Below, piece after piece: positions 7,480 to 47,160 of a DNA stretch of 64,000 bases. The DNA comes from Rhodocollybia butyracea (taxonomy: Eukaryota; Basidiomycota; Agaricomycetes; Agaricales; Omphalotaceae). The translations under genes and the position numbers were made by a program. Positions within the stretch are counted from its first letter, which is position 1; each line of letters starts with the position of its first letter. Where the stretch lies: NCBI GenBank assembly GCA_015501585.1, contig JADNRY010000014.1, forward strand, positions 124,001-188,000, written 5' to 3'. The notes under the pieces were generated by a model that was not told where the DNA came from, ran no database searches, and was given only the letters and a program-made list of their open reading frames with translations.

Positions 7480-8411
7480 ATGCGCGCTGCTCTTCTCCTC
7501 TTTACCCTCATCGCTAGCTCCATGCTTGCTGTGTGTATACCAGTGCCAGGCAGGGAGGACCGCAAGCCAAAAATAGCTGGGAACAACAGACTTGGAACAC
7601 ATCATGGTGGGACCCAAAGACTTGGGCTACCGCCACCAAGGAAAGCCAGGGAGCCTAAGCCTGAGTTGCCCATGTTTCGGGGCGATCGTGTACGTGTTTA
7701 ATGGTTAAATTTCTACCTTATACCCACACCATCCTAGGTTGTGACCTTCATTAACTTGGACAAAAGAGGCCCCAGCTGTGGAACCGAGCTAACTGTCTTT
7801 CAAAAGAGCTCGCCGAGTGGCATAAATCGCAGCCGCGAACTCACCATGGCGATAAATGATGCCATGGGCTCGGAGGCTTTTTCTATGACCTACAAAGGTT
7901 TACTTATGCCTGAAGGCCCTCGGAAACGGCTTTTTTTTAAGATGACCGGACCAGGCTGTGATCTAGAATGTTTTGGGTGGATAGCAAAGGGTCGTGAGTA
8001 CATCTGGTTTTTCTTGCGTTCCTCATTTATGTTTTGCTAGCTCCATTTGAATGGAAGGACAAGGCTCGTACATCTGCGGGAGTGGCTAAAGGCGGGGATT
8101 TTAAGACGTGGTATGTTGGCATCAGCCTCGGGGGCAGCCAAAAGGGCCCATTTAAGGAGCCTCCAAGCGGTAATGCTCTCCTGTGGAAAAGGCTAAAAGC
8201 ATGGGAGATCATTCGGGATGAAGCTAAGTTGATAATCAATCATCTGAGTGGGGGCGAAGTTGAGTTGATGTTCAATAAGCCGGGGCCAGTCCAGCCTGCT
8301 TATCACGGGTCTCCATTCAATCCTCAACTTTTGCCTCCAGCTTCAATCCTTCCCCTTCCTCATCGACCTCGTCCATATCCTGCTCCTCCATATGTCCTGA
8401 CCCGGCCCTGA
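7480..8411 (+). CDS. SSP1: small secreted protein, unrecognised family
   Basis: Predicted 278-residue secreted protein. Introns are 7690-7737 and 7994-8040, and the three exons total 837 bp. Residues 1-22 form a signal peptide (MRAALLLFTLIASSM... to AVCIPVP). Residues 23-70 are a basic, proline-containing linker (GREDRKPK, PPPRKARE). Exon 2 opens with VVTFINLDKRG, with a possible Kex2-type KR. It has the family core LFFKMTGPGCDLECFGW, whose CxxxC holds the conserved cysteines. Exon 3 has TWYVGISLGGSQKGPFKEPP and a proline-rich tail. I do not know this domain; the size, signal peptide and clustering suggest an effector-like or cell-surface role, which is inference only. Twin of SSP2. Confidence 0.75.
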
Positions 8412-9560
8412 ACTAACTTACTTATGAGCGCTTGTTTCTACGTACAGTACCATTGGATAACCTAATGATTCATGCAACTCCAATGAAGTGATGAACCTTT
8501 CTTCATCGTTCGCGTCCTCGCCTTCCTTGCTGCCTCTCATGATATCGTCAACGAAACGGCCTCGAGCAACTCGATATTGAGACCAATCCTTATAGCGTTA
8601 TTTTAAGCTGATTATTCCATATCTTGTCTTTTGAGGGAGTACAGTGGTTGTCGAGGCTGTAGAGATCGAGATTTAGTGAGCATCCTATCTCTAATCGTTG
8701 CGCCGTTCATCTAACTTGTAGATACCCATGCAGCGTCACGCGTCATTGGCATGAGCGCAAAATTATCTGTCAATTTTGTTACCGTCTCCTACACCGACTC
8801 ACACTGCTCTACGCCCTCTAAAAAGGCGGAAAGTCTCTTCAGCCGCGCGCGTTGACCTTTTTCTTTTACAGGCTGCCAAAGCCTTTGCTTCTCTTACCTT
8901 CGACCCATCCCCGAAGAAACCCGCAATGAACAAGATGACAATGGACGACGAAAGCCGCCTGCTCCTCCAAAGACGGCACTCACAGTGACACGGTCGAAGA
9001 ATCCATCGCACCATCGCAAAGCACCTTATCCGAAGCAGAACTCGAAGCTCTACAAAAGAGTTTCGAGTACACGCCGTTCTTCCTACCTCCAATTAATCTC
9101 TCTCTTTCTCCCGCCGCCGTTTCGTCCTCTTCCCACAAGATATGCTACCCACACTATTCTCTTCAAAGTTTGTTCTTCCATTCCGGCTCACCTTCACACT
9201 AATAGAATTGGCAGATGTACAAAAAAGCTGAAGCTTGCTCTGGACCGCCCAAGAAATGGAAACATGCACGACTACGACTGGAACTCCATATTAACCACCA
9301 CCGGTCTCTTGATCTCCCGCACCTTTGTCTTCTCCACTGCCTCTGACTGTATACGACGTATCGTCAATCATCAATGAAAACTTTCGAATGATTCTCCAAC
9401 AAAGTCCAAGTCACTGCAGTGCGATGCTTTTATGGACTCCAAGCTTGATGCATGGGAGAACATCCATTCTGAGATGTTCTTCTTATTGATACTCACATCA
9501 AGCACCCGGTCGAGAGCAGCTACCTCTTTGATATGACTGAGACCGTCCTGGCGGAGTGGC
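8412..9560 (+). pseudogene. Downstream stretch with a degraded coding fragment
   Basis: Region 3' of SSP1, repeated after SSP2. Near 8815-9080 a plus-strand coding-like fragment can be followed across frames: PLKRRKVSSAARVD, QAAKAFASLTFDPSPKKP, then SDTVEESIAPSQSTLSEAELEALQ. Each piece is in a different frame in both copies, so I read it as a remnant of an unknown gene. The remainder shows no feature. Confidence 0.4.
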
Positions 9561-9785
9561 CATTGAGGTGGATTAGAGATGAGGCCTCGGAGTCAGTCTT
9601 TGGCGAATGGCTTCGTTAAAGGTATCTTCTTTTCTGCGCCTTTTGTCTCGATATTTTGAATGAAGACGCATGAGCTTGATACCGTTTTTGAGCTGATTAC
9701 ATAGGACGAGGGGATACATACCGGTTTTGCTGTTAGCCATAGGTGGGGCTGGGGTGAACCATTCCGGCGCGCGGTATGACACAAG
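9561..9785 (-). pseudogene. Broken exon of an unknown gene, unit 1
   Basis: Minus-strand counterpart of the open exon at 14368-14655. It starts APEWFTPAPPMANSKTG and then loses frame through a small deletion (the twin has an extra ccatcccg at this point). The later words IFIQNIETKGAEKKIPLTKP sit in another frame. Function unknown. Confidence 0.45.
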
Positions 9786-9940
9786 TGTTGAGGACCTGCG
9801 GTCCCTGATGGTTGATTGGTGTTCCTTGTTTGTTTAGTGTCAAGAAAGACTTTTATTGATCATTTCGACATACATTCTTCTGGTATTCGCCCTCTCAAAC
9901 CATGCATACATACACACAGATGTTGCGTGATCTTGTTATT

Positions 9941-10280
9941 TCTCACTTGTTATATCAATTTATAGCCAATGTTTGTTCCACGTTCAACATTGATAATAGT
10001 AAAGCCCAAGCATTGTCTTTGGCGAGATGCCCAGCTGTCTCGGGAACCTGCAGGTTCGGAGTACATCCATATTTTGATGAGGCGTAAGAGAGCGAGACGA
10101 GGTATTAAGATTTTCAGGGTCTCAAGCAACACTGGTCCTCGCGCGGATCGTTTTCAGCCTGAGCAGCAAGAGAGTACCCCCATGTGGTAAGTACTGGTAA
10201 GTATCACTGGGTAACAGTGGGTAACGTTCTGTAACATTACATCAGAGCAACACAGGTTTGCAAAAAGTGCTCATTCCGCT
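9941..10280. other. Linker between the two tandem units
   Basis: Sequence unique to the junction of the duplicated units. It has no recognisable gene. It ends abruptly where the copied agmatinase sequence starts (about 10281). Confidence 0.45.
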
Positions 10281-11681
10281 ACAATAGTGCTTTGGGGATA
10301 CTTACTAGCTGGTGCTTGACTTGGATCTTTTATGGTATCGTTAGCCTTCGAGTCCGAGTCTGTTGATAATCTCATGCCCACCTACGACGTCGATATCCAA
10401 GCTCATTGTAGAGTTGCGTCAGTACGTGACGCGCTACCGTAGTAGGGACACGACACAGTTACCTCAAGTACACAGGTTTATCACCGATACGTTGACGAAT
10501 CTTTTTAATGATGTTCTTGATCCCGTAGTCATCGATATCTTCAGCGCTGATCACTTGAAATCCTACAGTATCGTCATGTCTCAAGTCTTCGATACCCTAT
10601 CCAATGATTCAATCTGGGCAGCTTGTGCATACGCGCAGTAGCTCACGTTCATCTTGCATCGAATCCCGCCATGTATACTGGTATTCGTTAGCAGTCCTTC
10701 TTCAGCTGCAATTGCGAAGAACGATCCGTGGTTTATACGTTCTTGAGGAGTGCTTCCTGGTAGAGGAGCCCAAGTGTCCAGATGAGCGTCAAAGTGGATA
10801 ACCTGTCCTAATTCAAGTTACTATTCCTCAAAAAAAGAATAGGGAATGACTCAACCGAAACGGGCCCGTACACCTTATGCAATGCCCTTAGGATAGGAAG
10901 GACCTGTGAAATTGTTTAGAAGCGATTCTGCTCGGAGAACGGATCTCACGATAGTATGATCTCCTCCCAGGGTGACAATTCTAGGGTGTTCTTTCCCATC
11001 AAGGGCAAAAGCACGAGTTCTCTCCTTGTAAATCTCTGAAGTCCCTCCATACACCGGGCGCGAAAGCAACGTTAAGTATGCAGCCTCCATCTGGCCAATC
11101 GCTTTGGCATTGTCAAATGGTGAGATTGGGACCTAGCGCATGAGCGCGTGAATGCGCAAAGGTTGAGTCGTGAGCTTTGAATGTACACACATCGCCGCAG
11201 TCCAAAAAACTCGCGCCGAAATCCGATGGACTGCTTCCCCATGCGAGTGAATAGCCTATTCCGACACCAAGTGGCTGTCTTCGGGATCCAGCACGAATGG
11301 CATAAGGTCCAAACCGTGCACCTGACCAGCAAGGACAGATAAAGAGACATATAATATTAATTAACATCATGGTGAAGCTGATAGTGATACATACCAGGTC
11401 TATAACTAGTAGTAGTGTCAAAAGGAAAACGAATAATTCCGATATCGAAAGGTGTACTAGCATCTTCGAGACATTTTCTGTAGTTGAAATGGGAAAAGCT
11501 CAAGGGTCCACTGTAGGTCATGTCGTTCTGTGGCGACGTATTTGCTGGTCCAGGGCTCCTTGGAGATGTCGGTTGGAACGTTTCCGGCTGTAAACGGCTG
11601 CTGTGGCATTGAATATTCATGAGCGCGCGATACAAGGGAAGCGTAAAGAGTAACAAAAATAGTCCAAAGGTATTTAAACAT
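10281..11681 (-). pseudogene. Truncated, frameshifted agmatinase duplicate
   Basis: Near-identical copy of the gene at 4991-6783. The matching ATG is at 11679-11681. Exon 1 has a one-base insertion (tggcgacg against tgggccg), which turns KYGPQNDM into an out-of-frame run. The duplication breakpoint removes the last two exons, so the segments TGTPEIGGWTTREV and GADIVEV are absent. The GGDHTIV and DAHLDTW exons are still present in sequence. It cannot make a complete enzyme. The low divergence from the parent implies a recent event. Confidence 0.88.
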
Positions 11682-12248
11682 TGTGGATGTAACGATCTGA
11701 GAGAGATAAATAATAAGCGCTCACGCTCGTTCATGTGCAATAGGCGCCACACTCCAGTGCTCCGCCGCCTCGTAAACACGCTCCGAAGCTTGCACTAGGG
11801 CCTGAGACCTCGCCGGAAGCTAGGAAGGCCCGAGGGCTTGTATTGGGACAACATCCAGCTTATACAAATCCCTCTTATTCTGATACTTTAACGGTCAGAT
11901 AATTGGAGGCGGTCAGCGAGTTCAAGAAGTTCAAGACAGCTTTGAAATTCAAGTGTATCGTTTCAGTCCCGGAAGGTCAGGGAAGGTCCCGGACTCCAGA
12001 AGACTCCCCCGTGTATATCACTATCACTAGGTGACATTGCACCAGAGCTGCAACAACTAGAATTTGCAACGAGTTGCAAAAAGTGCTCACCGCTTAAGTT
12101 GTGACTCGTGAGCAGCTGTTGAACAGCCTTTAAACTCTTCTCCTCTTTCTTTCTTCTTCTTTCTCAGCGTGAAAAACTTGCTCTCTCCAGATTCTGGAGT
12201 CAGGATACGAGCCGATATAAGCAGATCTAGAGGTATGTCAATTTTTGA

Positions 12249-12274
12249 CCAATGATACTACAGGTGCTTATAAA
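12249..12274 (+). promoter_or_regulatory. SSP2 core promoter: CCAAT and TATAAA
   Basis: CCAAT at 12249-12253 and TATAAA at 12269-12274, 115 bp before the ATG, with the same layout as SSP1. Confidence 0.65.
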
Positions 12275-12383
12275 AAGCAACTCGTATATGCAGTAGTTCT
12301 GCTGGTTCATTCTCTCACTCGAATACAGCTTGCTGGTCAAGCCACATTCCTCGAAACAAATACTACTCGATAAATTCTCAAGA

Positions 12384-13267
12384 ATGCGCGCTGCTCTTCT
12401 CCTCTTTACCCTCATCGCTAGCTCCATGCTTGCTGTGTGTATACCAGTGCCAGGCAGGGAGGACCGCAAGCCAAAAATAGCTGGGAACAACAGACTTGGA
12501 ACACATCATGGTGGGACCCAAAGACAAGTTGGGCTACCGCCGCCGAGGGAGCCTAAGCCTGAGTTGCGTATATTGCAGGGCGAACGTGTACGTGTTTAGT
12601 GGTTAAATCTCTACCTTATATCCACGCCATCCTAGGTTGTGACCTTCATTGACTTGGACAAAAGAGGCCGCAGCTTTGGAACCGGGCTAACTGTCTTTCG
12701 AGAGGGTTTGCCGCATGGCATAAAACGCAGCCGCGAACTTACCATGGCGATAAATAATGCCATGGGCTCGAAGGCTTCTTTAATAAACTACAGAGGTTTA
12801 CTTATGCCTATGGAAGGCCCTCGGAAATGGCTTTTTTTCAAGATGACCGGACCAGGCTGTGATCCAGAATGTTTTGGATGGATGGCAAAGGGTCGTGAGT
12901 ACATCATCTGGTTTTTCTTGTGTTCCTCATTTATGTTTTGCTAGCCACGATTGAATGGAAGAACACGGATAAAACATCTGCGGGATATTCTTCAGAGAGG
13001 GAGTTTCAGTCGTGGTATGTTGGCATCAGCCTCCGTGGCAGCCAAGAGGGCCCATTTAAGGAGCCCCCAAGCAATGATGATGTCCGGAGCTTCTTGTGGA
13101 AAAGGCATAAAGCATGGACGATCCTTCTGGGCGAATTTAAGTTTATCAAACAGCCGGAGCCGGTCGAGCCTGCCTATCATGGGCCTCCATTCATTCCTCG
13201 TTTGCCTTCTTCAATGAGTCTTCATCGACATCGTCCATATCCTCCTTTTCCTGCTCCTCTGTCCTGA
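12384..13267 (+). CDS. SSP2: small secreted protein
   Basis: Predicted 261 residues. Introns are 12588-12635 and 12895-12944; the exons sum to 786 bp. Exon 1 is almost identical to SSP1 (signal peptide, GREDRKPK). Exon 2 has FIDLDKRGRSFG and LFFKMTGPGCDPECFGW. Exon 3 has SWYVGISLRGSQEGPFKEPP and ends in a proline/histidine-rich tail. Amino-acid changes against SSP1 concentrate in exons 2-3 while exon 1 is nearly unchanged, which could reflect diversifying change in the mature domain. Function unknown. Confidence 0.75.
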
Positions 13268-14655: not shown

Positions 14656-14790
14656 ACACAAAGGCGTTCATTGTTTAGTGGTCAAGGAAGACTTATATCC
14701 ATCTTTCAACATACATTCTTCTAGTACTCACCCTCTCAAAACCAAGCATATGTACACACAAACGTTGCGTGACTGTTATCCCGGAAATGT

Positions 14791-15632: not shown

Positions 15633-16482
15633 ATGCGCGCTCCCCTTCTACTCTTTATACTCATCGCTAGCTCTATGCTTGCTGTGTGTATACCGGTGCC
15701 AGGCGGGTCCAAAGCCGAGTCGTCAAAAGGCAAAAGACCCGCACCAGGGTCACCAGAAGCCGGGCCATCGAAGAGACCTAGGTTGCAGGCCCAACGTGTA
15801 AGTAGTTACTAAGTTAGTGGTTAATCATCTATACGTCATGCCCATATCATGTCAGGTTGTGACCTTCGTAAACGTGAAGGGTTCAAGCTTGGGAACAGCC
15901 CCAACTGTATTTCGGCAGTCGGCCGGCGTACTCCGCCCAGACACACTCAAGCAAGCGATCAATGATGTGCTCGACGAGGGGTCATCGATAACCTTCCAAG
16001 GTTTCTTACAGCCATATTTGCAAGATCGGAAATGGCTTTTTTTCACCATGACCGGACCAAGATGTAACCCTGTACTATTATGTTTTGGCTTCGCAGCAAA
16101 GGGTGGTGAGTACGATCTGGCTTTTCTTGTGTTCCTCGTTCCTCGTTCATGTTTGCTAGCTGCATACGATTGGAGGGGCGCACAGCGTACACAGGCGGGA
16201 AAAGTTACAGGCGGGGAATTTCAGTCTTGGTATACTGGGATCAGCCTCGGAGGCGACCCAAAGGGCCCGTTTCTGGAACAACCAAGCTACGATGAACGGC
16301 AGCAGAGAAGAAAGGATGAGGAGTGGGTGTCCGTTTTGGAAGAGTATTTTAAACTCAACGCTGGGCCGGTCCATCCCGCTTTGCAAATCCCTATTCAACA
16401 ATTACGTCCTTCGATTCCTCCTTCGATTCCTCCTCCTCCTCATAAACCATATTCTCTTCCCCATCCTCGCCCTCCGTATTGA
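15633..16482 (+). CDS. SSP3: small secreted protein
   Basis: Predicted 245 residues. Introns are 15798-15855 and 16106-16159; the exons sum to 738 bp. The signal peptide (MRAPLLLFILIASSM) is followed by a basic linker with KGKRP and SKRPRLQAQR, which could be a proprotein cleavage site or a nuclear-localisation-like patch. The core reads WLFFTMTGPRCNPVLLCFGF, with the cysteine spacing widened from CxxxC to CxxxxxC. Exon 3 gives SWYTGISLGGDPKGPFLEQP and a PPSIPPSIPPPP tail. Intron 2 is 54 bp, a multiple of three, and has no in-frame stop. Function unknown. Confidence 0.75.
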
Positions 16483-17383: not shown

Positions 17384-18225
17384 ATGCGCGGTGTCCTCCT
17401 CTCCTTTATGCTCCTAGCCAGCTCCATGCTTGCTGTGTGCATACCAGTGCCGACCGGGTCAGATGCCAATCAAGCCAAGAAGAAACTTGTAAGTGGTTAC
17501 TAGTTATCATCTATACCTCATATCCACACCTTGCCAGACTGTGACCTTCATTAAAGGCAAAGGAGGTTCAATGGGAAGCTTGGAAACGGACAAAACTAAA
17601 TTTCCAGATCCAAAGAGCCCATTTTTCACCATTCGCAAAGAGGATCTCACCAGTGGGATCAAAAAAGCCATCGGCTCGTCTGGAGAACCAGACTACAGAG
17701 GTCCATTCAAACCGGAAGAGATCGCACCAGGAGAGATCGTACCGGAGCAGAATCAGGAAGGCCGCGAAGCTGAAGAATCTAGCAGTGGGGCCAAGCCCAT
17801 GGTCCCATACCGGCTTCATTTCATAGTCACCGAAGAGGGGGGTGAGCATGGACCATGGTTTGGGTGGGCAGCACAAGGCGGTGAGTACGCTCCTGGATCT
17901 GGATTTTCTTGTATTCCTAATATCTGTTTGGCTAGCTTCGTGGAACTGGAGGATCGATAAGCAGCACAAGAAGGGAACAGCTGTCAGGAAGAACATACGC
18001 AGGCTTACGTTGTGTGTTGGTGTTAGCTTAGGCACCCCAGGGCACGAGTTCAAGGCCATTAATGAACCTCCAAACACCAATCTGGACCTCCTCGAGGAGA
18101 AGAAGCGAGGAGTATGGACGTCCCTTCGGGATGACTTTGTGCGTCTGCCAATCCATCCGGCCCATCCACCTCAGACTTCTCCTTCTAACACAATGACAAT
18201 ATCTAATCTCATGAATGCTCATTAG
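17384..18225 (+). CDS. SSP4: small secreted protein
   Basis: Predicted 245 residues. Introns are 17489-17537 and 17881-17935; the exons sum to 738 bp. The signal peptide (MRGVLLSFMLLASSM) has a very short linker ending in AKKKL. Exon 2 is longer than in SSP1-3 and acidic in its centre (EEIAPGEIVPEQ). The core reads RLHFIVTEEGGEHGPWFGW, so both conserved cysteines are lost, a subtype shared with SSP5. Exon 3 has LTLCVGVSLGTPGHEFKAI. The subtype forms its own branch with SSP5. Function unknown. Confidence 0.72.
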
Positions 18226-19135: not shown

Positions 19136-20190
19136 ATGCGCGGTGCCCTCCTCTTCTTTATGCTCATTGCTAGCTCCATGCTTGCTGTGTGTATACCAGT
19201 GCCACCCGAAAAAAGACCCGCAGACTCAGAACTAAAGGCCGGCGTGTCAAAGAAGCCACTCCCTTCGACCCCCTCTCCTCCTCCCCCACCTGGGTTTCGC
19301 CATGTAAGTGTTTGTGGTTACTAGTTATCTATACCTCATACCCATATCTTGCCAGACTGTGACCTTCGTAGACAGCACAGGTTCAAGCTTGGGAACGGAA
19401 GAGACTAACTTTGAAGGCGTAGGAGGCTTGGGCATCCGCAGACAGGATATCACCAAAGCAATCAATGCCTTCATTGGAGGGGTCGACGCCACACCAGATC
19501 TGTCAAAGCCGTACTACAGAGGTAAACTTCACCCGGAAAAAATCACACTCACAGAACAAGAACAAAAAGATATCGGCGCGCATAAGTACATAGACAACGG
19601 CGATAGAAAAATCGAATTGGTCCCACGCCGGCTTCATTTCATAGTCACCGAAGTAGGGCATGAGCGAGCGAGGGCCATGGTTTGGGTGGGCAGCACAAGG
19701 TGGTGAGTACTGAGTACTCGCTCCCGGATCTGCATTTCTCATATCTGTTTTGCTAGTGACATGCACCTGGAGGGAACAGGAGCGTGTACATGTCAGGAAG
19801 AACTCTAACAGATTTGCGATGTACGTTGGTCTTAGCCTAGGCACCCCAGGGAACGTGTTCCAAGCCATGAGACCTCCAAACACCAATGCCCTCGAGGTCC
19901 TAAGGCTAGAAGTATGGGAGGTCCTTCAAAATAACTTCATGAAACTGCCGGTCCATCCGCCTCATCCTCTTCCTCCCGCTTCTCCTTCTAATATCATAAC
20001 TACTCATGATTCACATTCTCCTCTCATGATTACTGGTGAGACGAGGAATCCTGCTCCTGGTCTTCTTCCAACGCTTGAACCTCAGGCTCTTCCAGAACCA
20101 ATCCCTGTTCCCGCATTGCGTGGTTCAATTCCTCGTTCTCCTCATATTACATATTCTCAGTCCGCCTCAGGGACATTGATATCAAGCTGA
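19136..20190 (+). pseudogene. SSP5: frameshifted small secreted protein gene
   Basis: Closest to SSP4. Exon 1 is 19136-19303 (signal peptide MRGALLFFMLIASSM, then PPEKRPADSE and a poly-proline stretch), exon 2 19356-19702, exon 3 19757-20190. The exons sum to 949 bp, one more than a multiple of three. The fault is a four-base surplus near 19655-19672 (gagcgagcgagggcc against gagcatggacc in SSP4). It makes the frame end at a stop 19704-19706 that spans the donor, giving ...MVWVGSTRW. The old frame of exon 3 (MYVGLSLGTPGNVFQAM and a long proline-rich tail) is still fully open, so the break is recent. A shortened secreted product remains possible. Confidence 0.75.
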
Positions 20191-21384
20191 CGCAGTGCTG
20201 ATCCCATTGAACCGGCCCGGTTTGCTCTTGGTGGTCTTAGCGTATTTTGTTGTGTATTGATATTATTGATCAGCAAGCCTTTTTGCCCTTCTCCGTTGAC
20301 CAATAAGTAGATATTCCAATGAAGAAAACTCGCAACCTAGGCGAAAGAAGTAGCAAAACGCGCTGAACTCTGGCGAATCCACGTTTCTTCATCTCTTTCG
20401 CGTCCTCGCCTTCTCTCGCCTTCTTCGCTGCCTCTGAGATCTGATCATTGATGGTACCGTCAACGAATGGTCAACGAAACGTCTTCAAGCAACTCAAGAT
20501 TGGGATCATTGCTTGTATCAAGAAAAGGCGTAGTGAGCGTTGACGCGGATGTTGAGCCTGTTATTAAGTCCGAAGGGATTGGGACATGGATTCGTTCCTA
20601 CTGTTTGAAAAGAGGGTTTTGGGTCTTTTTTTACGGCTGGGGTGAGCGTGCGTGTGGACAGTAAAATGCAGGGTTAGAGGTCTTGAAGACTTTGTGAGTA
20701 CTTTTTAATCGAGTTTACTTGAGTTTTTTTCGCTTTGTTTAATTTCGTTCTCGCCTCATCGTTCTTCGATCTTCGACATCGATCGTTCATCTTCTTCTAC
20801 ATGTTCTATACTCTATCCCACCATCTCCATCGATACGCAGATCACGTACTAATCTTATCTCCCTAGTACGGTGCACATGCCTTCCAGTTGGCTTGCGATC
20901 TTTTTGGAATTTCCATCTGGACATTCGGACTCGTATATGTCTCTTCTTCCTCAAATGCTTGTTCTTCCTCTCAACTCCGCTGCCACTTCTAGTTCAGCTC
21001 AACACGAAATCATTTTGTTTATCCCCAGTTTCGCTGTGTCTGCCCAGCGGTATAATGAAGTTGCTTTCGTTCTCTTTTCAAGAGTGTTGTTCCTTCGAGT
21101 TGACGCCCCGAAAGGTGGGGCAACCCCAATGGTCATCGAATGCTTCATAATCAAGTCAACTCTTGATAGCCTCTATCCTCCTATGAATACTGTTCTCTTT
21201 TCCATTCGAGTGAAATGATGACGAACGAGAGATATCGTCGTGTCAAGTTCCCACACACACCTTCTGACCACGCACCTTTCTTCTTACCACCACATGCTCT
21301 AACAGTACGCCTTCTTACTCGTTCCAATCCTTCCTGTATTGACTCGCCGTTCTACCAGGTACGCAACTCTGTCAAAATACTCGA
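20191..21384. other. Intergenic upstream of the DUF7907-like gene
   Basis: About 1.2 kb with no confident gene. It starts with the SSP5 3' region. From about 20460 to 21384 it matches 26540-27670, upstream of the second DUF7907-like copy, and probably includes the promoter of that gene. Confidence 0.45.
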
Positions 21385-22011
21385 ATGCCTCCAATCCACG
21401 AACCACCTTCCCGCAACCATCTCTTCTGGCTCCGCACCGCCCCTCACCCATCCACCCCCACCGCATCCAAATACGCCAACTGCTACCTCCGCCACCACGG
21501 CGGCGGCGTCGACGCTGTCATGGTCATGCCTAAACCACCTATATATCTTCGATCGCATATGGACGAAGACGGCAGAGTAGTCTTCATGTCGTGGAAACAT
21601 CCTGGACGGAGCTGGTGTCTCAATCTCGCGCTGGGTGGGCTTGGAACTGAGGGTGCACGGACGAAAATGAAGTGGCATGAGGCAGAGATTGTTGAGGCTA
21701 CCGAGGATGATCGGGATGGCACAACGTTAGCATCGGGAAAGGGTTTTGTTTTTAATGAGGCGATGGTCTCGGGAGAGCTAGTCACGGTGTTGAATGCGGG
21801 GGAAATTGAACTTGAAGGGGGAGGGCCGCAGTTTGGTGGGTGGATGGTATGCGAATGGAAGTGGGGGCATCCTCAATTGTTTTGGTTGCGCAAGAGCAAG
21901 GATGAAGGACTTGATGATGTCGAGTTGCCGCCGTTTTGTGAGAGGGTTGTGCTTGTGAAGGAAGCTTTACCTGAGGGTGTTCAGGATCAAGCCCCGGAGA
22001 ATCGTGTATGA
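21385..22011 (+). CDS. DUF7907-like protein
   Basis: Uninterrupted 208-codon gene from ATG 21385 to TGA 22011. No signal peptide is seen. The N-terminus MPPIHEPPSRNHLFWLRT is followed by NCYLRHHGGGVDAVMVMPKP and FMSWKHPGRSWCLNLALG. The C-terminal half has PQFGGWMVCEWKWGHPQLFW and PPFCERVVLV. The FGGW(M/L)VC-W-G-PQLFW pattern and the late single cysteine remind me of fungal DUF7907 proteins; this match is from memory and needs a profile search. Function unknown. It lies between SSP5 and SSP6 and is duplicated with the SSP units; the second copy is broken. Confidence 0.65.
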   Translation: MPPIHEPPSRNHLFWLRTAPHPSTPTASKYANCYLRHHGGGVDAVMVMPKPPIYLRSHMDEDGRVVFMSWKHPGRSWCLNLALGGLGTEGARTKMKWHEAEIVEATEDDRDGTTLASGKGFVFNEAMVSGELVTVLNAGEIELEGGGPQFGGWMVCEWKWGHPQLFWLRKSKDEGLDDVELPPFCERVVLVKEALPEGVQDQAPENRV

Positions 22012-23620: not shown

Positions 23621-24432
23621 ATGCGCGCTGCCCTTCTCCTATTAATTCCCATAGCAAGCTTCATGCTTGCTGTGTGTATACCAGTGCCTCCAGTGGATGG
23701 TGAATATGTAGCCATAGCTCCGGCTGGCCCTGGTTACACAAGACCGCCAGATGGTGAAGGCACCAACCCGTCCCCGCAGAAGAAACTGGGCCGGAGACGG
23801 AGCTACCCACCGCGTGTAAGTGTTTACTGGTTAATCATCTACACCTAATACCCATATCTTGCCAGGCGGTGACCTTCATTAGAAACAAAGGAGACCCGGC
23901 GGGAATCGGCCCGCCCACTACTTTTGGTCCCGGCGTCACCTCAATCGGCTTCTCCAGAGGGCTCAATGATATCTTGGGCTCGGCTGAAAATCACTACATG
24001 GGTACATGGGAAGTATCGGGAGAGAAATGGGTTTATTTTAAGGCCACTGGTGAGGGGTGTAATCCATCATGTTTTGGGTGGTCAGCAACAGGACCTGAGA
24101 GAACGCTGGGAGGAACCGGGGAAAGTAGGTATTGGGGTGTTAGCCTAGGCGACCCGGCCAGGAACATCTTTACACCCAAGAACCCATTTCCAGGAGGCCC
24201 AAGTAACTATGCAAAAAAGAGGCGAGAAATATGGAACAGCCTTGTGGGGGAGTTTGAGAGAGGCCCCTTTATGAACCCGCCAGCTTCTCAGGCTCCTCCT
24301 GATCGAATGGCCATACCTCGTATCATGAATACTTCTGCTCCTCCTGGAAGTCCTGCTCCTGGCCAGGGTTCCGCTTCTGGCCAGGGTCCTGCTATTCTTC
24401 CTCCTCTTCGTCCGCGCCCAGGTGACCATTGA
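23621..24432 (+). CDS. SSP6: small secreted protein lacking the second intron
   Basis: Predicted 253 residues. There is one intron (23816-23865) and the exons sum to 762 bp. The signal peptide (MRAALLLLIPIASFM) is followed by a glycine/proline-rich linker ending in KKLGRRRSYPPR. The core reads WVYFKATGEGCNPSCFGWSA. Where other copies have a 47-69 bp intron after GW-A-G, this copy reads straight through (CFGWSATGPERTLGG to YWGVSLGDPARN), so the intron is precisely missing. The tail has GSPAPGQGSASGQGPAILPP, which resembles the repeat unit of SSP7. Function unknown. Confidence 0.75.
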
Positions 24433-26249: not shown

Positions 26250-26460
26250 GAGTTCAAAGCCATCAATCGTCTCCTCTCATGATTACTGACGAGACCTGGC
26301 ATACCTCCAGAACCGGTTGAACCTCACCAAGACTTACCTCGTTTCAAAATCCCTGTTCCTTATCTCCCTCTTCATTTTCTCCTCGTATTCCAGATTCTCG
26401 TGGTTATCAACATACTCCGTATTGATATTATGCTGAGCGCTGAACGTTGCTCGGCCATTG
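26250..26460 (+). pseudogene. SSP 3'-end remnant
   Basis: Matches the proline-rich tail and 3' region of SSP5 (ctcctctcatgattactg, then gatattatgctgagcgctga; compare 20022-20195). It has no signal peptide or core domain. It marks a vanished SSP copy whose 5' part was replaced by ankyrin-MYND fragment A. Confidence 0.6.
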
Positions 26461-27670
26461 AGCCCGGCTTATGATCGCGTATACGTAACCGTATTTGTGT
26501 ATTGATGTTGCTGTCAGCAAGCCTCTTTTGACAACCTCGCCTTCGGCATCGTCAACAAAACGTCTTCGAACAACTCGACGCCCATTCCTTGTATCAAGAA
26601 AAAGCCACAGTGAGCGTTGACGTGGATGCTGGGCTGGTTATCCAGTCCGAAGATATGATTTCATTCCAGTTTTTTTGAAAAGAGGGTTTCGGGTTTTTTC
26701 AACGCTGGCGAACTTGAGGGCAGTAGAGCACAGGCTTTGAATATTTGAATTTGAGGACCTTGTGAGTAATTGTTTAATCGAGTTTACTTGGTCTGTCTGA
26801 GTTTTTTCGCTTTGTTTAGTTTCGTTCTTGCCTCGTCGTTCCTCGACATCAATTTTCATCCTCTTCTACAAATCCTAGATTCCTACTAGTAGCACAACCA
26901 TATACAATGATTCTACCTGTATCCCACCATGTCCACCGATATATTGATCATCTCATTTCCTTCATTTCCCTACCGCTTGTTTCAATGCCTTCAAGTTGGC
27001 TTGCATTCTTTTTACAACTCCCATTTGTATGACCATAAACATTCGGACCCGTAGATGTCCCCCCTCCCAACCCGGTAGTCTACTCTTTTCTTCTCATCCC
27101 AACTTCGCCGGAACTCACGCGACAACTCGTCGTTCTTTCAGGATCGTTCTTGGTTTTGCGTCTACCATATAGGTCTTGGTAAGTCACGCTTTCTGCTGTT
27201 TGATTCGATCGAAATTCAATATTCAGGTTACAGCAGGCCTCAATGAAGGAAGCCATATCATCATCTTTATCCTGTGTCTATTATCCACCGGTGATGTTGC
27301 TATTCACGTCCTTTCAAAGTGTTGTTCCTTCGAGTTGATTTGAAAAGCGGGGCGATCCAGTGGATCAGTGAATGCTTCATACTTCATGATCAAGTCGCCT
27401 CTTGATAATTCTCTATCTTTCGAGTCCTCTCGATAGTCTCTCTATCTTCTGAATACATACTATACTCTTCGAACTCCATTTGAGTGAAGATGATGACAAA
27501 CGAGGGATATCGTCGTGTTCTCACACAGACCTTCTGACTACGCACCTTTCTTCTTACCACCACACGCTCATAAAGCACCAGTACGCCTTCTTACTCCTCT
27601 CAATCCCTCCTATATCGACTCACCGTTCCTTCCACCAGGTACACAACTCTGTCAAATTTCTTCTCTCCAA
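26461..27670. other. Intergenic upstream of the broken DUF7907-like copy
   Basis: Counterpart of 20300-21384 with indels. No gene recognised. Confidence 0.4.
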
Positions 27671-28232
27671 ATGCCTCCAATCCACGAACCACCTTCCCGC
27701 AACCATCTCTTCTGGCTCCGCACCCACCACAACCAAATACGCCAACTGCTACCTCCGCCACCATGGCGGCGGCGTCGACGCTATCATGGTCATGTCTAAA
27801 CCACCTATATATCTTCAATAACACCCTGGACGGAGCTGGTGTCTCGATCTCGCGCTGGGTGGGCTTGGTACTGGTGCAAGGACGAAGATGAGGTGGCATG
27901 AGGCAGAGATTGTCGAGGCCGCCGAGGATGACCGGGACGGCACAACGTTAGCACCGGGAAAGGGTTCTGTTTTCGATGAGGCGATGGTCTCGGGAGAGCT
28001 AGTCACGGTGTTGAATGCAGGGGAAATTGAAGAGAGAGGGGGAGGGCCGCAATTTGGTGGGTGGATGGTATGCGAATGGAAGTGGGGGCATCCTCAATTG
28101 TTTTGGTTGCGCAAGAGCAAGGACGAAGGACTTGATGATGTCAAGTTGCCGCCATTTTGTGAGAGGGTTGTGCTTGTGAAGGAAGCTTTACCTGAGGGTG
28201 TTCAGGATCAAGCCCCGGAGAATCGTGTATGA
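27671..28232 (+). pseudogene. Broken second copy of the DUF7907-like gene
   Basis: Same start (MPPIHEPPSRNHLFWLRT) as the gene at 21385, but a deletion after the codons for LRT (cccaccacaaccaa against cgcccctcacccatcc...) shifts the frame. Further on PPIYLQ is followed directly by a TAA stop, with about 45 bp missing that encode SHMDEDGRVVFMSWKH in the intact copy. The second half (HEAEIVEAAEDDRDGTT to the C-terminus) is open and about 95 percent identical by eye. A recent pseudogene. Confidence 0.82.
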
Positions 28233-29474: not shown

Positions 29475-30376
29475 ATGCGCTCTGCTCTACTTTTCTATTT
29501 ACTCATAGCTAGCTCTTTGCTTGCTGTGTGTATACCAATGCCAGCCAACAAAATCAGGCCCAGAACAGGGCCGCCCACCGGGGCACCAGGTAAAAGAACA
29601 GCCATCGAGTCACCTGAGGGGCAACCAGCACCAAACAAGGCTGAGCCACCAATTGATATAACTATCCGCGTGAGTGTTCAATAGCTAAACATTTATACCT
29701 AATACCCACATATTGCCAGGCTCTTGGTCAGGGTCGTGCACCCGTAGCTCAGATGTCTGTTCTTGATCATCCTGGAAGTCCTGGTCATGCACCTGTAGCT
29801 CAGATGTCTCTTCCTGATCATCCTGGAAGTCCTGGTCGTGCACCTGTAGCTCAGATGTCTGTTCTTGATCATCCTGGAAGTCCTGGTCGTGCACCCATAG
29901 CTCAGATGTCTGTTCTTGATCATCCTGGAAGTCCTGGTCGTGCACCCATAGCTCAGATGTCTGTTCTTGATTATCCTGGAAGTCCTGGTCATGCACCCGT
30001 AGCTCAGATGTCTCTTCCTGATCATCCTGGAAGTCCTGGTCGTGCACCTGTAGCTCAGATGTCTGTTCTTGATCATCCTGGAAGTCCTGGTCGTGCACCC
30101 GTAGCTCAGATGTTTGTCCTTGATCATCCTGGAAGTCCTGGTCATGCACCCATAGCTCAGATGTCTGTTCTTGATTATCCTGGAAGTCCTGGTCGTGCAC
30201 CCGTAGCTCAGATGTCTGTTCTTGATCATCCTGGAAGTCCTGGTCGTGCACCCATAGCTCAGATGTCTGTCCTTGATCATCCTGGAAGTCCTGGTCGTGC
30301 ACCTGTAGCTCAGATGTCTCTTCCTGATCAGATGTCTGTTCTTGATTATCCTGGAAGTCCTGGTCGTGCACCCTAG
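29475..30376 (+). CDS. SSP7: signal peptide fused to a 17-residue repeat protein
   Basis: Predicted 283 residues. Exon 1 is 29475-29669 (signal peptide MRSALLFYLLIASSL, then a basic linker with GKRTAIE) and the intron is 29670-29719. Exon 2 starts in the family's usual phase but, instead of the VTFI core domain, reads ALGQGRAPVAQ and then repeats of MSVLDHPGSPGRAPVAQ. The frame ends at TAG 30374-30376, where one G is missing from unit 12 (caccctagctc against cacccgtagctc). The remaining repeats continue in another frame to a family-like end (GSPAPGHGPAYPHD, stop 30922-30924). The repeat resembles the GSPAPGQG tail of SSP6, so I infer that a tail segment was amplified while the domain was lost. 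The product would be extracellular and proline-rich. Confidence 0.65.
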
Positions 30377-30905
30377 CTCAGATGTCTCTTTCTGATCATC
30401 CTGGAAGTCCTGCTCGTGCACCTGTAGCTCAGATGTCTGTTCTTGATCATCCTGGAAGTCCTGGTCGTGCACCTGTAGCTCAGATGTCTCTTCCTGATCA
30501 GATGTCTGTTCTTGATTATCCTGGAAGTCCTGGTCGTGCACCCGTAGCTCAGATGTCTGTCCTTGATCATCCTGGAAGTCCTGGTCGTGCACCCGTAGCT
30601 CAGATGTCTGTTCTTGATCATCCTGGAAGTCCTGCTCATGCACCCATAGCTCAGATGTCTGTCCTTGATCATCCTGGAAGTCCTGCTCATGCACCCATAG
30701 CTCAGATGTCTGTTCTTGATCATCCTGGAAGTCCTGGTCATGCACCCATAGCTCAGATGTCTGTTCTTGATCATCCTGGAAGTCCTGGTCGTGCACCCAT
30801 AGCTCAGATGTCTGTTCTTGATCATCCTGGAAGTCCTGGTCGTGCACCCGTAGCTCAGATGTCTCTTCTTGATCATCCTGGAAGTCCTGCTCCTGGGCAC
30901 GGTCC
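29733..30905 (+). repeat. 51-bp coding minisatellite in SSP7
   Basis: About 22 full units of 51 bp (17 codons, consensus MSVLDHPGSPGRAPVAQ) plus two 18-bp partial units (MSLPDQ near 30323 and 30494). Variable positions are V/I before AQ, H/Y in LDHP, R/H after PG, and VL/LP. The same composite (full unit, MSLPDQ, then a Y-type unit) occurs twice, which shows a higher-order duplication. There is one single-base deletion (30371-30373). Because 51 is divisible by three, several frames on both strands are open throughout. Confidence 0.9.
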
Positions 30906-35642: not shown

Positions 35643-36577
35643 ATGCGCGCCGCCCTTCTCCTCTTAATGCTCATAGCGAGCTTCATGCTTGCTGTGTGTA
35701 TACCAGTGCCTCCTACTGAAGTCGGCGAAACACCCGGGCTACCAGATGGTTCCAAGAAAAGACCACCCCCGAGTGACAATTCAAGCCAGCCAACGAAAAA
35801 ATTCTTAAAGAATGGCAAAGAACGTGTAAGTGTTTACCCGTTAATCATTTATTCCTAATACCAACATCTTGCCAGATTGTGACCTTCATTAGCGACAAAA
35901 GTGGTACCCCGACCTCGCAAGCCGATATCACTGTTTTTGATGACACCGACATCACCAAAATGGGTTTCTCCGGAAGGATCAATCGTTTCTTTACCTCGGC
36001 TACCAATACCTGCAAAGGTTCATGGAGACCAGTGGGAGAGAAGAAATGGGTTTATTTCAAGATCACTGGTGACGGGTGTGATCCATCATGTTTCGGGTGG
36101 TCAGCAATAGGACGTGAGTACTCACTCCTGGATTTGATTTTTCTTGCATTTCTCATATATGCTTTGCTAGCTCAATATCGAACGAACCCGGCTGAGGGTG
36201 GGCCCGCTGCAGTACCCCACGGGACCAAGACTCAGAGGTATTTTAGCCTTAGCAAAGGCGACCCGGCCCATGACGCCTTTGACCCGAGCACCCTTCCGGA
36301 AAGCGATCTTAGCTTCCAACCATCCACTGAAACGGCAAGGGCTGCAACGATGACGACCCTTTTGGAAGAGTTTGACCGCGAGTTTATGAATCCGCACAAT
36401 GAGCCTCATACTCCTCCGCCTGCTACTCCTGGTCCTGGAAATCCTGGTCATCCCCATGATGTGATGGGCATACCTAATATCCTGAATTCTCCTCTGCCTC
36501 CCACTCCTCCTAGTCGTCCTGGAGCTCCTCCTCCTCGTGATGCTCCATTTCCTCCTCCTGCTCAGCATCATCATTAA
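35643..36577 (+). CDS. SSP8: small secreted protein
   Basis: Predicted 275 residues. Introns are 35826-35875 and 36114-36170; the exons sum to 828 bp. The signal peptide (MRAALLLLMLIASFM) has a linker with SKKRPPPSD and TKKFLKNGKER. The core reads IVTFISDKSGTP and WVYFKITGDGCDPSCFGWSA. Exon 3 has RYFSLSKGDPAHDAFDP and a long tail rich in PP, PGPGNPGHPHD and HHH. Intron 2 is 57 bp and fully open; if retained it adds a hydrophobic stretch (LLDLIFLAFLIYALLA) in frame. Function unknown. Confidence 0.77.
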
Positions 36578-37720: not shown

Positions 37721-37744
37721 GATTATTAGAATCGTGATAGGGCA

Positions 37745-39296: not shown

Positions 39297-40144
39297 ATGC
39301 GCGCTGCCCTTCTCCTCTTAATCCCCATAGCGAGCTTCATGCTTGCTGTGTGTATACCACTGCCTCCAGATGTGACCACTGGTAAAAGACCAGCAGAGGA
39401 TGAAGGCACCAACCCACCCCGACAGAAGAAAACGTATCACCTACAACGTGTAAGTGTTCACGGTTTAGCCATCTATACCTAATACCCACATGATCTTGCC
39501 AGACTGTGACCTTCATTACCGACAATAAAGGTACTATTTCCAGCTCGGAAACCACTCCTTTCGGTGATCGCAACGACGTCACTGCATCGGGCTTCGTCGA
39601 AGCAATCAATAAAGTCCTTGGTACTACGGGCTCTAAAGGAGTTCATACCTACGAGGGTAAATGGGAAACAGCTCAAGGAGACAAGAAATTTGTTTATTTC
39701 AAGATCACTGGTACCGGATGTGATCCATCATGTTTTGGGTGGTCAGCACTGGGAAGTGAGTACTCGCTCCTGGATTCAATTTTTCTTGCGTTTCTCATAT
39801 ATGGTTTGCTAGCGAGATGGAGAGTTGCCAAGGGTAAAGTTGTAGAAAATGGTAAGATGAGGTATTATGGTCTTAGCCGAGGCGGCCCAGACAGTAACAT
39901 CTGGGATCCTGTTTTGTCACTTCCGGATATAGCTACCCTAGATGGGGTCCCCAAGGCTAGCCGCCAGGAGTGGGACGCCCTCTTGGATGATTTTAAGAAG
40001 CACTTTATGAAACTTTCAGATTCTCCTTCTCCTCCTATTGCTCAGCCTCCCACTGGAAGTCCTGATCCTGACCAGGATCCTGACCAGGGTCCTGCTATTC
40101 TTCCTCCTCTTCGTCCGATGCGCCCATCTGGTCGTCCTCAGTGA
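39297..40144 (+). CDS. SSP9: small secreted protein
   Basis: Predicted 245 residues. Introns are 39450-39502 and 39756-39812; the exons sum to 738 bp. The signal peptide (MRAALLLLIPIASFM) is followed by a linker with TGKRPAEDEG and RQKKTYHLQR. The core reads TVTFITDNKGTI and FVYFKITGTGCDPSCFGWSA. Exon 3 has RYYGLSRGGPDSNIWDP and a tail with PDPDQDPDQGPAILPPLRP, nearly the same ending as SSP6. Intron 2 is 57 bp and open in frame, as in SSP8. Function unknown. Confidence 0.77.
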
Positions 40145-42800: not shown

Positions 42801-43126
42801 GCAGGAAGGTAATAGTTGGTCGTCGTCGAACGACGAACATTAGAATGTATAATACTATAAAGAGGAAACAGGGATTACTGCGTGGACTGGAGGACAGGAG
42901 ACACAGCAGTCTCAGGAACGCTGGCACATTTATCTGTTGCACCTGCAGGCCTGGACGTCGGAAGCAGCATCGTTTACAGGTTCCGGTGGGTCCTTTTGTT
43001 GGTTTTTGCAGCGATTTCTTCTCTGTGCATTTCTAGTTATTCCAGTTCTGCTGGTCCAGTCTCTCTTTCGAATACAGCTTGCTGGTCAAGCTGCATTCCT
43101 CGAAATAACTCGATACATTCTCAAGA

Positions 43127-44045
43127 ATGCGCACTGTTCTGCTTCTCTTCATGCTCATCGCTAGCTCTATGCTTGCTGTGTGTCCCAGTGCCCAACCCGC
43201 CCGGCCCAAAACGATCCAGCACCAAGACCGGGACTGCGACCTTCCATCCTTACAACAGGGAGTTGAAGCCGAAGCCGTTGACCGGAAAGCGGCTTTTTTA
43301 CGAGCCGATGGGGAAACCTCCGTCTAACAGGCCGGAGTTGCCAATGTCGGAGGGCCTCCGTGTAAGTGTTTGTGGTTAATCGTTTGATCATCCATATAGA
43401 CCTCATACATCTTGCCAGACTGTGACCTTCATTAACCTCTCTACATTTTTGCCCACTCCGGGCTCAGAGGAGACCATAACTGAATTTCCAGACGGTGTCC
43501 CCTCGAACTGGCTCACTAACGCGATCAATATCGGCTTTACAGCTTCTGGCTCGACAATCTACAAAGGTTCATGTATACCATCGGCAGATGAGCGGATGTG
43601 GCTTTATTTCATAATTACCGGACCAGAGTGTCCAGATTCATGTTTCGCGTGGGCGGCAAAAGGTGGTGAGTGCCCGACTACTAGCTCCCTCATCTGGTTT
43701 TTTTCTTTGCGTTCCTCATATATGCTTTCACTAGCCAGATATAAATGGGATAAAGCTCGTAACACTGCGACAAAGACAAAAGGCAAGGATGGAAAATACG
43801 AAAATTTTCATTCGTGGTATGCTGGCGTTAGCAAGAATGGCCTAGCGGGCCCCTACATTCTATATCCAGACGCTAATGTCTTCCAGGTGGCAAAGAAAAG
43901 AGTATGGGAGACTATTTTAGGGGAGTTGAAGCGTTCGCGGATAAGCATACCTAATCTCAGGACTACTGATCAAGAGGCGAAGATTGAACATGGCTCGTAT
44001 CAAGTCAGGGTACCTGTCCCGCCACCTGGTAGCAGCATATCATAG
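43127..44045 (+). pseudogene. SSP10: SSP gene frameshifted just after the signal peptide
   Basis: Exons are 43127-43361, 43419-43665 and 43735-44045. They sum to 793 bp, two short of a multiple of three. The signal peptide (MRTVLLLFMLIASSM) is intact to AVC. There gtgtataccag of the other copies has become gtgtcccag, which shifts the frame. The old frame beyond is open: VPVPNPPGPKRSSTK, then core TVTFINLSTFLPTPG and FIITGPECPDSCFAW, then SWYAGVSKNGLAGPYILYP. The family promoter is also gone: homology to the leader begins at gttattccagttctgctggt (43036) and the TATA/CCAAT part is replaced. Intron 2 (69 bp) is open. I judge it inactive. Confidence 0.78.
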
Positions 44046-44455
44046 TACAATAGTTGTGGTTTAGCAGATCCCAGGTTATACGGTCGTGATCTAGTTGTTT
44101 CCACCCCCGGTTTTAACCTCGGTGGAGAGATGAGTGAGCCAATTCCAGATCTTGCATCGGAGGGCTGTCTTTTCTGGCCCGTGTGTGTGGAGCAAGAACA
44201 ATAGAGAAAGCACTTCGGGTCCTCCGGGCAGGTAGTGACCAGGGAGGTGATAGTTGATCGTTTTCTGGCGTAAGCGTTCGTGAGGCCATGACAAACAAGG
44301 AAACGAGTCAAAGAAAATTCGAAAATCACATTGACAAGTAACGATTACTATAAGTCTTGATAAGTATGACAACAAAAGAATAAGATGCGCCAGAATCCCA
44401 ACCTCCGGCCATCAGGTCACTACTTGACGCTTTCCCACACATCGACGAACAAGTC
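44046..44455 (-). pseudogene. Fragment related to 42660-42830
   Basis: Shares ccagatcttgcatcggaggg...ctgtcttttctggc...gagaaagcac with the segment before SSP10 (near 42700-42780) and with 33010-33060. No intact frame. It shows that the pieces flanking SSP10 come from the same duplicated element. Confidence 0.4.
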
Positions 44456-44469
44456 TCACATAGCGGGTG

Positions 44470-44760
44470 AAAAGCCACTGGCAATGGATGATGGACCAGA
44501 CAACAAGAGGACAAGAAACTGGGGCGTGATAGGATTATCGAACCCATGGTTCAAGAAGTAAAATGAAAGGAAACAGGAATTAAGGCGGAAAGCCACTGGC
44601 AATGGTTAAGAACACGGTTCAAGAGCTGAAATGAAATAAGTAGAACGTAGACAGGAAACGTGAATTAAGGCGGAAAGCCACTGACGACAGCTGGTGGACC
44701 AAACAACAGTATCAAAACCACAGTTCAAGAAGTGAAATGAAACAAGGAGAACGTATAAAG
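44470..44760. repeat. Imperfect tandem repeat of about 105 bp
   Basis: Three diverged copies, each with gaaagccactgg(c/a), a variable stretch, then ggttcaagaagt(g/a)aaatgaaa and a further gaacg (44470, 44585 and 44672 onward). Noncoding. Confidence 0.6.
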
Positions 44761-44832
44761 ACGAAATATGTAGGATAATGTTCAAACGTTCAAAGGATAC
44801 CCTTCCGCGGAAGGTCATCGACTGGTAGGGTA

Positions 44833-46099
44833 TCAGACTGGACTACTCTGAGAGAGCTTAGGTTTTGACTGCTGCTCGCGGATTTCTACGATGTCGTCCT
44901 CCAAATCTTGTTCGCCCTGCGTGTATGCGCATAAAGCAAACTAATAATCATATTAATGTAGGCGGAGGCTGAGTGGGGGGAGGTCTGACCCGAGTTACCG
45001 TAACGAGCTTTGTCTCTTCGCATCCACCCAGCTCTCCCTTAAGAGCTTGTACTTCGTCAAGATAGTGAGTTTCCTGGGCACCTGTTCACTTGATGAGTGA
45101 GAGCCAATGCTACGTTAATATGGAACTCCCACCGGGTTCGATGCTAGAGGAATGTTTGAGAGCAGGAGTTGCCTAGGAGAAAGCGTCAGAATCACATTAG
45201 AAAAGATAAAAGTGAAAGATCCATCACAACAGCAAGAAAAGCAAAACTCACACGACTCGACACATCCTCGAAAAGCCACTCAAGAATGCCCGCATCTGCA
45301 TCTGTTGCAACAAGTTAGTCATGGACGTCGGACGTTCTGAAAAAAAGCATCGTTTACGAACTCGAATTCTTTTTTTTTCACACATTTTTTGAGAAGATCG
45401 ACAATTTCTTTTCTTTCCTTGTCTAGTTCCGAGTTGTTCAGAATTTTATCACCGTCGAAGTAGACAGCGCAAATGAGCACGACGAAGGCTCCCTAAATAT
45501 GAGTGAGAATGAGAACGATGGCAAAAAGCGGGCTTCTTACTTTTGCACACCCCAGACCGTGCGACCATTCCATATCTGTGAAGGAATCGCGCGCCTCTTG
45601 TACCAGCTTGCTCGCCTTTTTGAGTTTCTTCACGTCTATAGGGGCCGGCAAGGAAGCAGGAGAAGTCGAAGGAAATGTGCGATTTAAAAGCTGTTCTGGC
45701 TTTTTGAGGTTCTCGATGAAGCCAACTAGGTCAAAGTACGCGTTTTCTCCAACTGCGACTTCAAACTCGATAGTCCAGCGTGCACTTTTGCGATACTTCA
45801 AGTTCCAGCGAAGCAGTTTTCTAAAAATCACCGCGATGATTCCGATGGTGGCGATATCAAGTATGCTAAAAATTATGTTTGGTTGAGAAAGAAAAAGTGG
45901 TTGACCGTTGAGAAGAAGTTCGGTTGAGAAGAAAGATCACGCTTACGCTTACCTTTTCGTGACGCCATTTGGATAGCGTCGACCAGTTTTTGAGTCTCTT
46001 CTGCCAGTCATTGGCAAGCTTACCATTCGCACCAGCTTCGTTTGTTCTTGCAGCATGGTGCACGAGACAATCTCCTACAAATGTTATTCCCCAAGTCAT
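44833..46099 (-). CDS. Hypothetical protein, spliced
   Basis: Probable gene of unknown function on the minus strand, start ATG 46097-46099 (MTWGITFVGDCLVHHAARTN). It continues NDWQKRLKNWSTLSKWRHEK, then a membrane-like ILDIATIGIIAVIFRKLLRW. Next come FEVAVGENAYFDLVGFIENL, DVKKLKKASKLVQEARDSFT and GAFVVLICAVYFDGDK. After a short exon with DADAGILEWLFEDVSS it has ETHYLDEVQALKGELGGCEE and ends EQDLEDDIVEIREQQ-SSPV, stop 44833-44835. At least five introns with good borders; the exon near 45290 is least certain. The charged, helical C-terminus may be coiled coil. I recognise no domain, although the layout reminds me of uncharacterised agaricomycete proteins. Confidence 0.6.
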
Positions 46100-46780
46100 A
46101 TTGATATTCTGAATTCTTGAGGCATACCCCACGTCCTTGTATCGCGATTCGATTACAATGCATAGGAACATGGCTATCTTGACATCAATATTTCAGGCCT
46201 CCAGGATAATTGATAACCAGTTATATGCCATTTTCGTTCGCGTACATGGTTTGCCACGCGACGCTGATTTTCTCCAAGACAATACATAGCTGACATGTAC
46301 AGTGAGTTTATGCTCGTACAGGACCTTGTCGAATGTACACACCAATTAATTATCGCGAGAGGTACGGATAAGCATCGCTAGGTGACTTCCAACCCACTCG
46401 GCGTAATCCATCGTTTCTGTCATGCATAAAAGCGAGGTAAGGATGGAAGAGGGAGGAGCTGAAATAGGGTCCACTAAGCGGAACCTCGTTGGTGAAATGT
46501 GCAGTAACCGGCGAGCAACTGGAAATTCTGATGGTCTTGTCGTAGCTGGGGCATTTGTCCAGAACTATTTTGTCTATCATCCCTCAAATACGCAAAGCCT
46601 CGTTAACCCACTGGCCACCGCGAGATGAAGATCCTTGTCTTCCCAACATTGAACATGTATGTTCGGGAACAGACGGGTGTTTTTTTTCGTCCTGTTCCGA
46701 GTCTGAGAACATAACATTCTCACAAGGGTCAGCAACCGAAATTGCAAAAGTGCAGAAAAGTGTTGTCTCCCGAAAGCAGA
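46100..46780. other. Intergenic
   Basis: Upstream of the hypothetical gene. Short open stretches on both strands lack splice or family support. Nothing confident. Confidence 0.35.
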
Positions 46781-47160
46781 ATCTAAAACCTCTTGACACT
46801 AACGAGCTCCCAGATCTGGTTTTTCTTGCATTCCACGTACTAATATGCTTTTGCTAGCTGCATATACATGGATCCAAGGTCATCAATCTGTGACAAAGTT
46901 AACCAGAGTGTCGTGGTATCATTGCTGGCGTTAGCACGTTTGGCCCACAGGGCCCGTTCAAACCACATCCAAGCAGTACTCCTCTCGAGAAGAAAAAGAA
47001 AAAAGTACGAGAGGACACTTTGAAGGTATTTATGAAACAGCCGCTTGATGAAGAGACTCAGGATAAGCATACCTAATCTTCTAACTACTGATCAAGAGCC
47101 AGACCACAAACATGGCTGGTATCAAGTATCGGTACCTGCCCTTTAGTCAGTCGCCTGTTA
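46781..47160 (+). pseudogene. SSP remnant: intron 2 and last exon
   Basis: The stretch gatctggtttttcttgcatt...gcttttgctag (46814-46857) matches intron 2 of SSP genes. The following sequence matches exon 3 of SSP10 (tcgtggtatc...gctggcgttagca, gggcccgttca, then aagcatacctaatct...ctactgatcaagag; compare 43810-43980). No signal peptide or exon 2 core remains upstream, so only the 3' third was duplicated or survived. Confidence 0.7.

Follow-up and report, generated by a model that had tools for sequence, protein, structure and literature searches.

What protein is encoded ten times over in one short region of a mushroom genome, and why its copies differ so strongly, is the question raised by 64,000 nt of the agaric Rhodocollybia butyracea (Omphalotaceae). 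This whole stretch, here called the window, covers positions 124001-188000 of contig JADNRY010000014.1 (C428) in an assembly of 95.6 Mb and 1,381 contigs, and ten plus-strand copies of one gene family lie in it from 7,480 to about 44,047. The best single reading, to which a probability of roughly 45% is given, is that the family consists of secreted proteins which bind rather than catalyse and which diversify through conflict with other organisms; secretion is suggested by a signal peptide read by eye, and the role in conflict is likewise suggested by the sequences.

A repeat search made without prior assumption recovered all ten plus-strand 5′ ends (family D3, 98 nt, nine copies being 64-81% identical to the reference copy), and the array is real as an earlier note on this DNA had described it. 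Seven of the ten copies, as also claimed there, have open spliced frames with GT-AG introns (Table 1, with the ATG at the first position of each). The gene architecture comprises a signal peptide, a basic and proline-rich linker, one alpha+beta module of ~140 aa and a variable proline-rich tail, and the hydrophobic, conserved N-terminal start judged by eye to be the signal peptide is found in all ten copies. The fixed exon phase proposed in the note holds for intron 1, in phase 0 in 7/7 intact copies, and for intron 2 in the six of the seven that have it (phase 1); from copy 6 intron 2 is absent. That the frames are truly coding is upheld by selection on close pairs, given below, and by copy 8, whose spliced product matches letter for letter P0001, the protein encoded on a Joint Genome Institute (JGI) contig of 1,104 nt. 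Because this short contig encodes the product with neither intron, copy 8 appears to be transcribed and spliced, and the contig is most simply read as a transcript.

As a correction to the earlier note, the array is part of a superfamily found genome-wide: its matches fall into at least 151 clusters spread over 84 contigs, with 26 clusters on C428. The clusters are pooled match starts of four own-genome searches (those with 104, 150, 148 and 106 matches, below), split at gaps >1.5 kb, and are not proven intact genes; the haploid number of loci would be below 151, because near-identical contig pairs suggest that both haplotypes are present. The searches with four family proteins or pieces gave at least 63, 104, 150 and 148 matches (E 0.01), that with protein P0012 at least 106 (E 1e-5), and an exon-1 DNA search gave 29. 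Iterated module profiles yielded 192 module-A hits on the examined loci, duplicates included, and 118 rows were left once short or near-identical ones had been removed. Members of the superfamily carry one to four modules, the named family proteins two to four. Outside the window, about 90 kb beyond the array, C428:258238-311084 holds a further block of family matches, every one of them on the minus strand. In a collection of 5.8 billion proteins 15 different proteins were matched, of which 13 are named R. butyracea, one is P0001 and one is P0012 (source 'lgn', 1,807-nt contig). The last is 68% identical to its best match in the R. butyracea assembly and therefore comes from another genome or from a copy absent in that assembly. 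Absence of the family from other genera is weakly supported, since this search, which depends on shared 5-residue words, recovered only 13 named R. butyracea proteins against at least 151 clusters. A description of the family was not found in the literature searched, and one may exist elsewhere; the array is one local outcrop of a large, modular and apparently undescribed superfamily.

Exon A of the module follows the pattern VTFI...G...F...LT..I..A.G...I.Y.G.Y.P..R.W.YF..TG..C..PCFGW.A.G, and exon B the patterns Y.GIS.G.P....F and EW......F....FM. The conserved columns are largely hydrophobic, aromatic, glycine, proline and cysteine, and no conserved polar cluster of catalytic look appears in the module alignment, for which reason a binding or antagonist role is thought likelier than that of an enzyme. 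Of the 118 rows, 94 have both cysteines beside FGW, 7 have neither and 5 have one, with 12 rows unplaced (Fisher p 1e-7 for their co-occurrence, the rows being related to each other), and a short-range disulfide between them is probable. AlphaFold2 modelled the module of copy 6 with a mean predicted local distance difference test score (pLDDT) of 86.1 and a predicted template modelling score (pTM) of 0.79 from an alignment of 96 sequences, made up of the target, 91 of those rows and four proteins. The model shows one strand and one helix, then three strands (55-62, 65-80 and 83-94) and a helix at the C-terminus (113-132). The model of full-length copy 8 (47 sequences; mean pLDDT 76.1, pTM 0.59) agrees with it, linker and tail being of low confidence. 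No clear match to the fold was obtained in the structure libraries searched, PDB included. The domain had not been recognised in the note and was not recognised here either: Pfam gave no family for the four intact copies searched and nothing significant for 47 module rows (best 0.025) or six multi-module proteins (best 0.023).

Local duplication with fast divergence, also proposed earlier, is well seen in the window. Copies 1 and 2 sit in a 4.9-kb duplicated unit found by the repeat search, and the flanks of copies 6, 7, 8 and 9 are related to each other. On a gap-free count, the flanks of copies 6, 8 and 9 are 84-96% identical as far as 900 bp away, the signal-peptide stretch 93-94% and intron 1 82-86% (intron 2 91% for the pair 8/9), whereas identity falls to 44-73% for the linker, 66-70% for exon A and 52-66% for exon B. 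Exon 1 had been held to be far better conserved than the others; this is true of its signal-peptide half, whereas its linker half is one of the most poorly conserved regions. Codon positions 1+2 of exon A differ at 32-36% of sites in these copies as compared to 10-12% in flanks (p 2e-9 to 3e-14), roughly a three-fold excess. As a control, a neighbouring DUF7907 gene duplicated upstream of copies 6 and 7 is 93% identical over 300 nt, and its duplicates are 80% identical over a gapped 200-residue alignment despite a stop in the second copy. For exon A pairs at least 90% identical across the examined loci, the ratio of nonsynonymous to synonymous differences per site (pN/pS) is 0.28 (0.17-0.58; n = 12 pairs); 11 of these pairs are between different contigs, which may represent two haplotypes, and one (L079/L080) is within C428. 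In exon B the ratio is 0.48 (0.19-1.27; n = 7) at ≥90% identity and 0.52 (0.33-1.02; n = 6) at 70-90%, and exon 2 ratios among the seven intact window copies range pairwise from 0.52 to 1.35. Close pairs are thus under purifying selection; the genes are maintained while paralogues diverge quickly.

In the proposed course of events, copies would multiply through local segmental duplication, after which the mature part would change fast and the promoter region, signal peptide and introns less. The module would be kept together by its conserved aromatics, glycines and prolines and by the probable disulfide beside CFGW. The proteins would act outside the cell against other litter organisms, or recognise them, be they bacteria, other fungi or small animals, and would diversify because the partner organism changes. 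Several observations weigh against this. In copies 6, 8 and 9 differences at third codon positions are raised in exon A as well (21-37%), and degenerate codons of the mature part that keep their residue still differ at 20-28% of third positions, so that selection on the protein need not be the sole cause; older divergence, or gene conversion keeping the flanks alike, may contribute. In copies 1 and 2 the contrast of exons and flanks is not clean, exon A (90%) being more alike than the 3′ flank (86%) and exon B (77%) less, and exon A paralogue pairs at 70-90% identity have a pooled pN/pS of 0.80 (0.64-1.09; n = 11), which is not >1. With no ratio above 1 secured and third positions raised, positive selection as the only cause is not established. 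R. butyracea is furthermore described as a decomposer of forest litter (PMC8480192) and has no known host, and a plant-infection effector is for this reason not the default reading.

The main rival is a structural or adhesive role in the hyphal wall, matrix or fruiting body, in which case the copies would change fast mainly because constraint is relaxed in a redundant family. It is favoured by the basic linkers and proline-rich tails, which would bind wall polymers, by the nearly neutral paralogue ratio of 0.80 and by the disruption of three in ten window copies, but the mature part outpaces its flanks beyond plain relaxation and a folded module is conserved throughout the superfamily, and we consider such a role rather improbable. 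Numerous divergent copies in arrays with a fast-changing mature part would also be expected of self/non-self recognition among mycelia of one species, in which variation between individuals is the function itself; pairs at least 90% identical, mostly between possible haplotype contigs, nevertheless show few differences and no elevated allelic diversity at their low pN/pS, which renders this unlikely. The same low ratio, the transcript-like contig of copy 8 and the conservation of core and cysteine pair make it very unlikely that a decaying or hitch-hiking repeat family of little function has been spread via duplication or mobile elements, even though the family is dispersed over 84 contigs and the same three copies are disrupted.

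Diversification in conflict with other organisms hence remains the preferred reading. In its most far-reaching form, an undescribed and possibly genus-restricted secreted domain, perhaps of a new fold, would have spread within one mushroom lineage to ~100+ loci and into proteins of several modules, serving as a diversifying arsenal or a repertoire for recognition against other organisms, its coding exons outpacing their own introns and flanks; this is possible, if doubtful. The earlier interpretation, rapid turnover as in effector or cell-surface families, is as a whole partly supported. It was to be given up on a match to a housekeeping domain, or on lack of transcripts together with a ratio of nonsynonymous to synonymous substitution rates (dN/dS) near 1 throughout, and neither was found. 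Expanded, fast-evolving secreted families are best known in pathogens and symbionts, and so large a family in a free-living decomposer of litter would indicate intense and little-studied conflict in soil and litter. The family provides a defined set of single-domain proteins open to expression and testing, and its module, being compact and modelled with confidence, is a target for structure determination.

Small secreted proteins (SSPs) are delimited by a mature length below about 300 aa. The note's term 'small' fits all seven intact window copies, which at 245-278 aa with signal peptide are below this cut-off, and not the multi-module relatives, which reach four modules and 621 aa. Most SSPs of Agaricomycetes in a comparative study are described as products of orphan genes without Pfam domain (PMC4649063), and the window family resembles them in combining a putative signal peptide, judged by eye, with no known domain. 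It differs in that one module unites at least 151 clusters, with up to four modules per protein, and in that full relatives exceed 300 aa. In animal toxin multigene families a conserved signal peptide is combined with a fast-changing mature part, and the array copies are similar: their promoter and signal peptide are conserved, their introns resemble each other more than their exons do, and the mature part varies. No relation to these families in sequence or fold was found, and the array proteins are not known to be toxic. A hydrophobin, of which an eight-cysteine pattern is the hallmark, was rejected, with two conserved cysteines only in the module alignment and no Pfam hydrophobin match. KEX2-processed repeat proteins (KEPs) are reported from Agaricomycetes with one homologue in R. 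butyracea (PMC9769878), and copy 7 is like them in that tandem peptide repeats come after its putative signal peptide. Unlike KEPs, whose peptide cores are separated by KR/RR sites, its repeat has no dibasic site and one basic residue only (R or H depending on the copy), its frame closes inside the array of repeats, and the other array copies are not repeat proteins.

Table 1. Family copies, remnants and the duplicated neighbour in the window
Feature	Position	Strand	Details
Copy 1, intact, 278 aa	7480..8411	+	exons 7480-7689, 7738-7993, 8041-8411; open spliced frame, GT-AG
Copy 2, intact, 261 aa	12384..13267	+	exons 12384-12587, 12636-12894, 12945-13267; open spliced frame
Copy 3, intact, 245 aa	15633..16482	+	exons 15633-15797, 15856-16105, 16160-16482; open spliced frame
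Copy 4, intact, 245 aa, no cysteine pair	17384..18225	+	exons 17384-17488, 17538-17880, 17936-18225
Copy 5, disrupted in exon 2	19136..20191 (end approximate)	+	exon 1 19136-19303 open
Copy 6, intact, 253 aa, no intron 2	23621..24432	+	exons 23621-23815, 23866-24432; module 23866-24282; identical to annotated P0002
Copy 7, signal peptide and linker, then tandem repeats, no module	29475..30376	+	exon 1 29475-29669; frame ends 30376
Copy 7 minisatellite, 51-bp (17-aa) unit, 23 copies	29732..30889	+	Tandem Repeats Finder
Copy 8, intact, 275 aa	35643..36577	+	exons 35643-35825, 35876-36113, 36171-36577; spliced product identical to P0001
Copy 9, intact, 245 aa	39297..40144	+	exons 39297-39449, 39503-39755, 39813-40144; open spliced frame
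Copy 10, disrupted	43127..44047 (end approximate)	+	stop in exon 1; exons 2 and 3 still open as pieces
3′ remnant related to copy 10 (intron 2, exon 3, 3′ flank)	46802..47222	+	three pieces, 70-74% identity
Weak 3′ remnant, tail fragment of copy-5-like gene	26270..26295	+	26 nt at 92%
DUF7907 gene and second copy with stop	21343-22008; about 27660-28230		duplicated along with array

The disrupted copies are 5, 7 and 10. In copy 5 the family's own splice pattern runs into a frame change in exon 2, and the call as disrupted depends on that pattern: an open frame exists under 16 of 110 other GT-AG pairs, the FGW strand being lost in all 12 inspected. The frame of copy 7 shifts partway through, and its 17-aa repeat is similar to the proline-rich tails of adjacent copies. 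Of the two 3′ remnants, that related to copy 10 is solid, and that near 26.27 kb is weak, consisting of its tail fragment and 3′-flank homology to copy 5 downstream at 26548-26870 (71%).

The annotated models P0003 (copy 3), P0004 (copy 9) and P0015 (copy 8) lack the signal-peptide exon, and secretome counts taken from the annotation would therefore miss them; P0004 also extends into sequence downstream of copy 9. Intron 2 is commonly stop-free and divisible by three, as at window positions 36114-36170 and 39756-39812. Across 89 unique gaps between exons A and B, 42 are in frame (copy 6, which has no intron 2, included) versus 26 and 21 in the other two classes, and 36 of the 42 are stop-free and would encode a hydrophobic insert if intron 2 were retained. 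Retention as a source of product was not accepted: the surplus is modest, the gaps come from related sequences, detection by open reading frames (ORFs) may favour same-frame gaps, and P0001 is without the insert. Elsewhere in the window, exon-sized ORFs match anoctamin (52327-53055, plus strand), cytochrome P450 just under the Pfam cut-off (54211-54804, minus strand) and short-chain dehydrogenase (197-817, minus strand).

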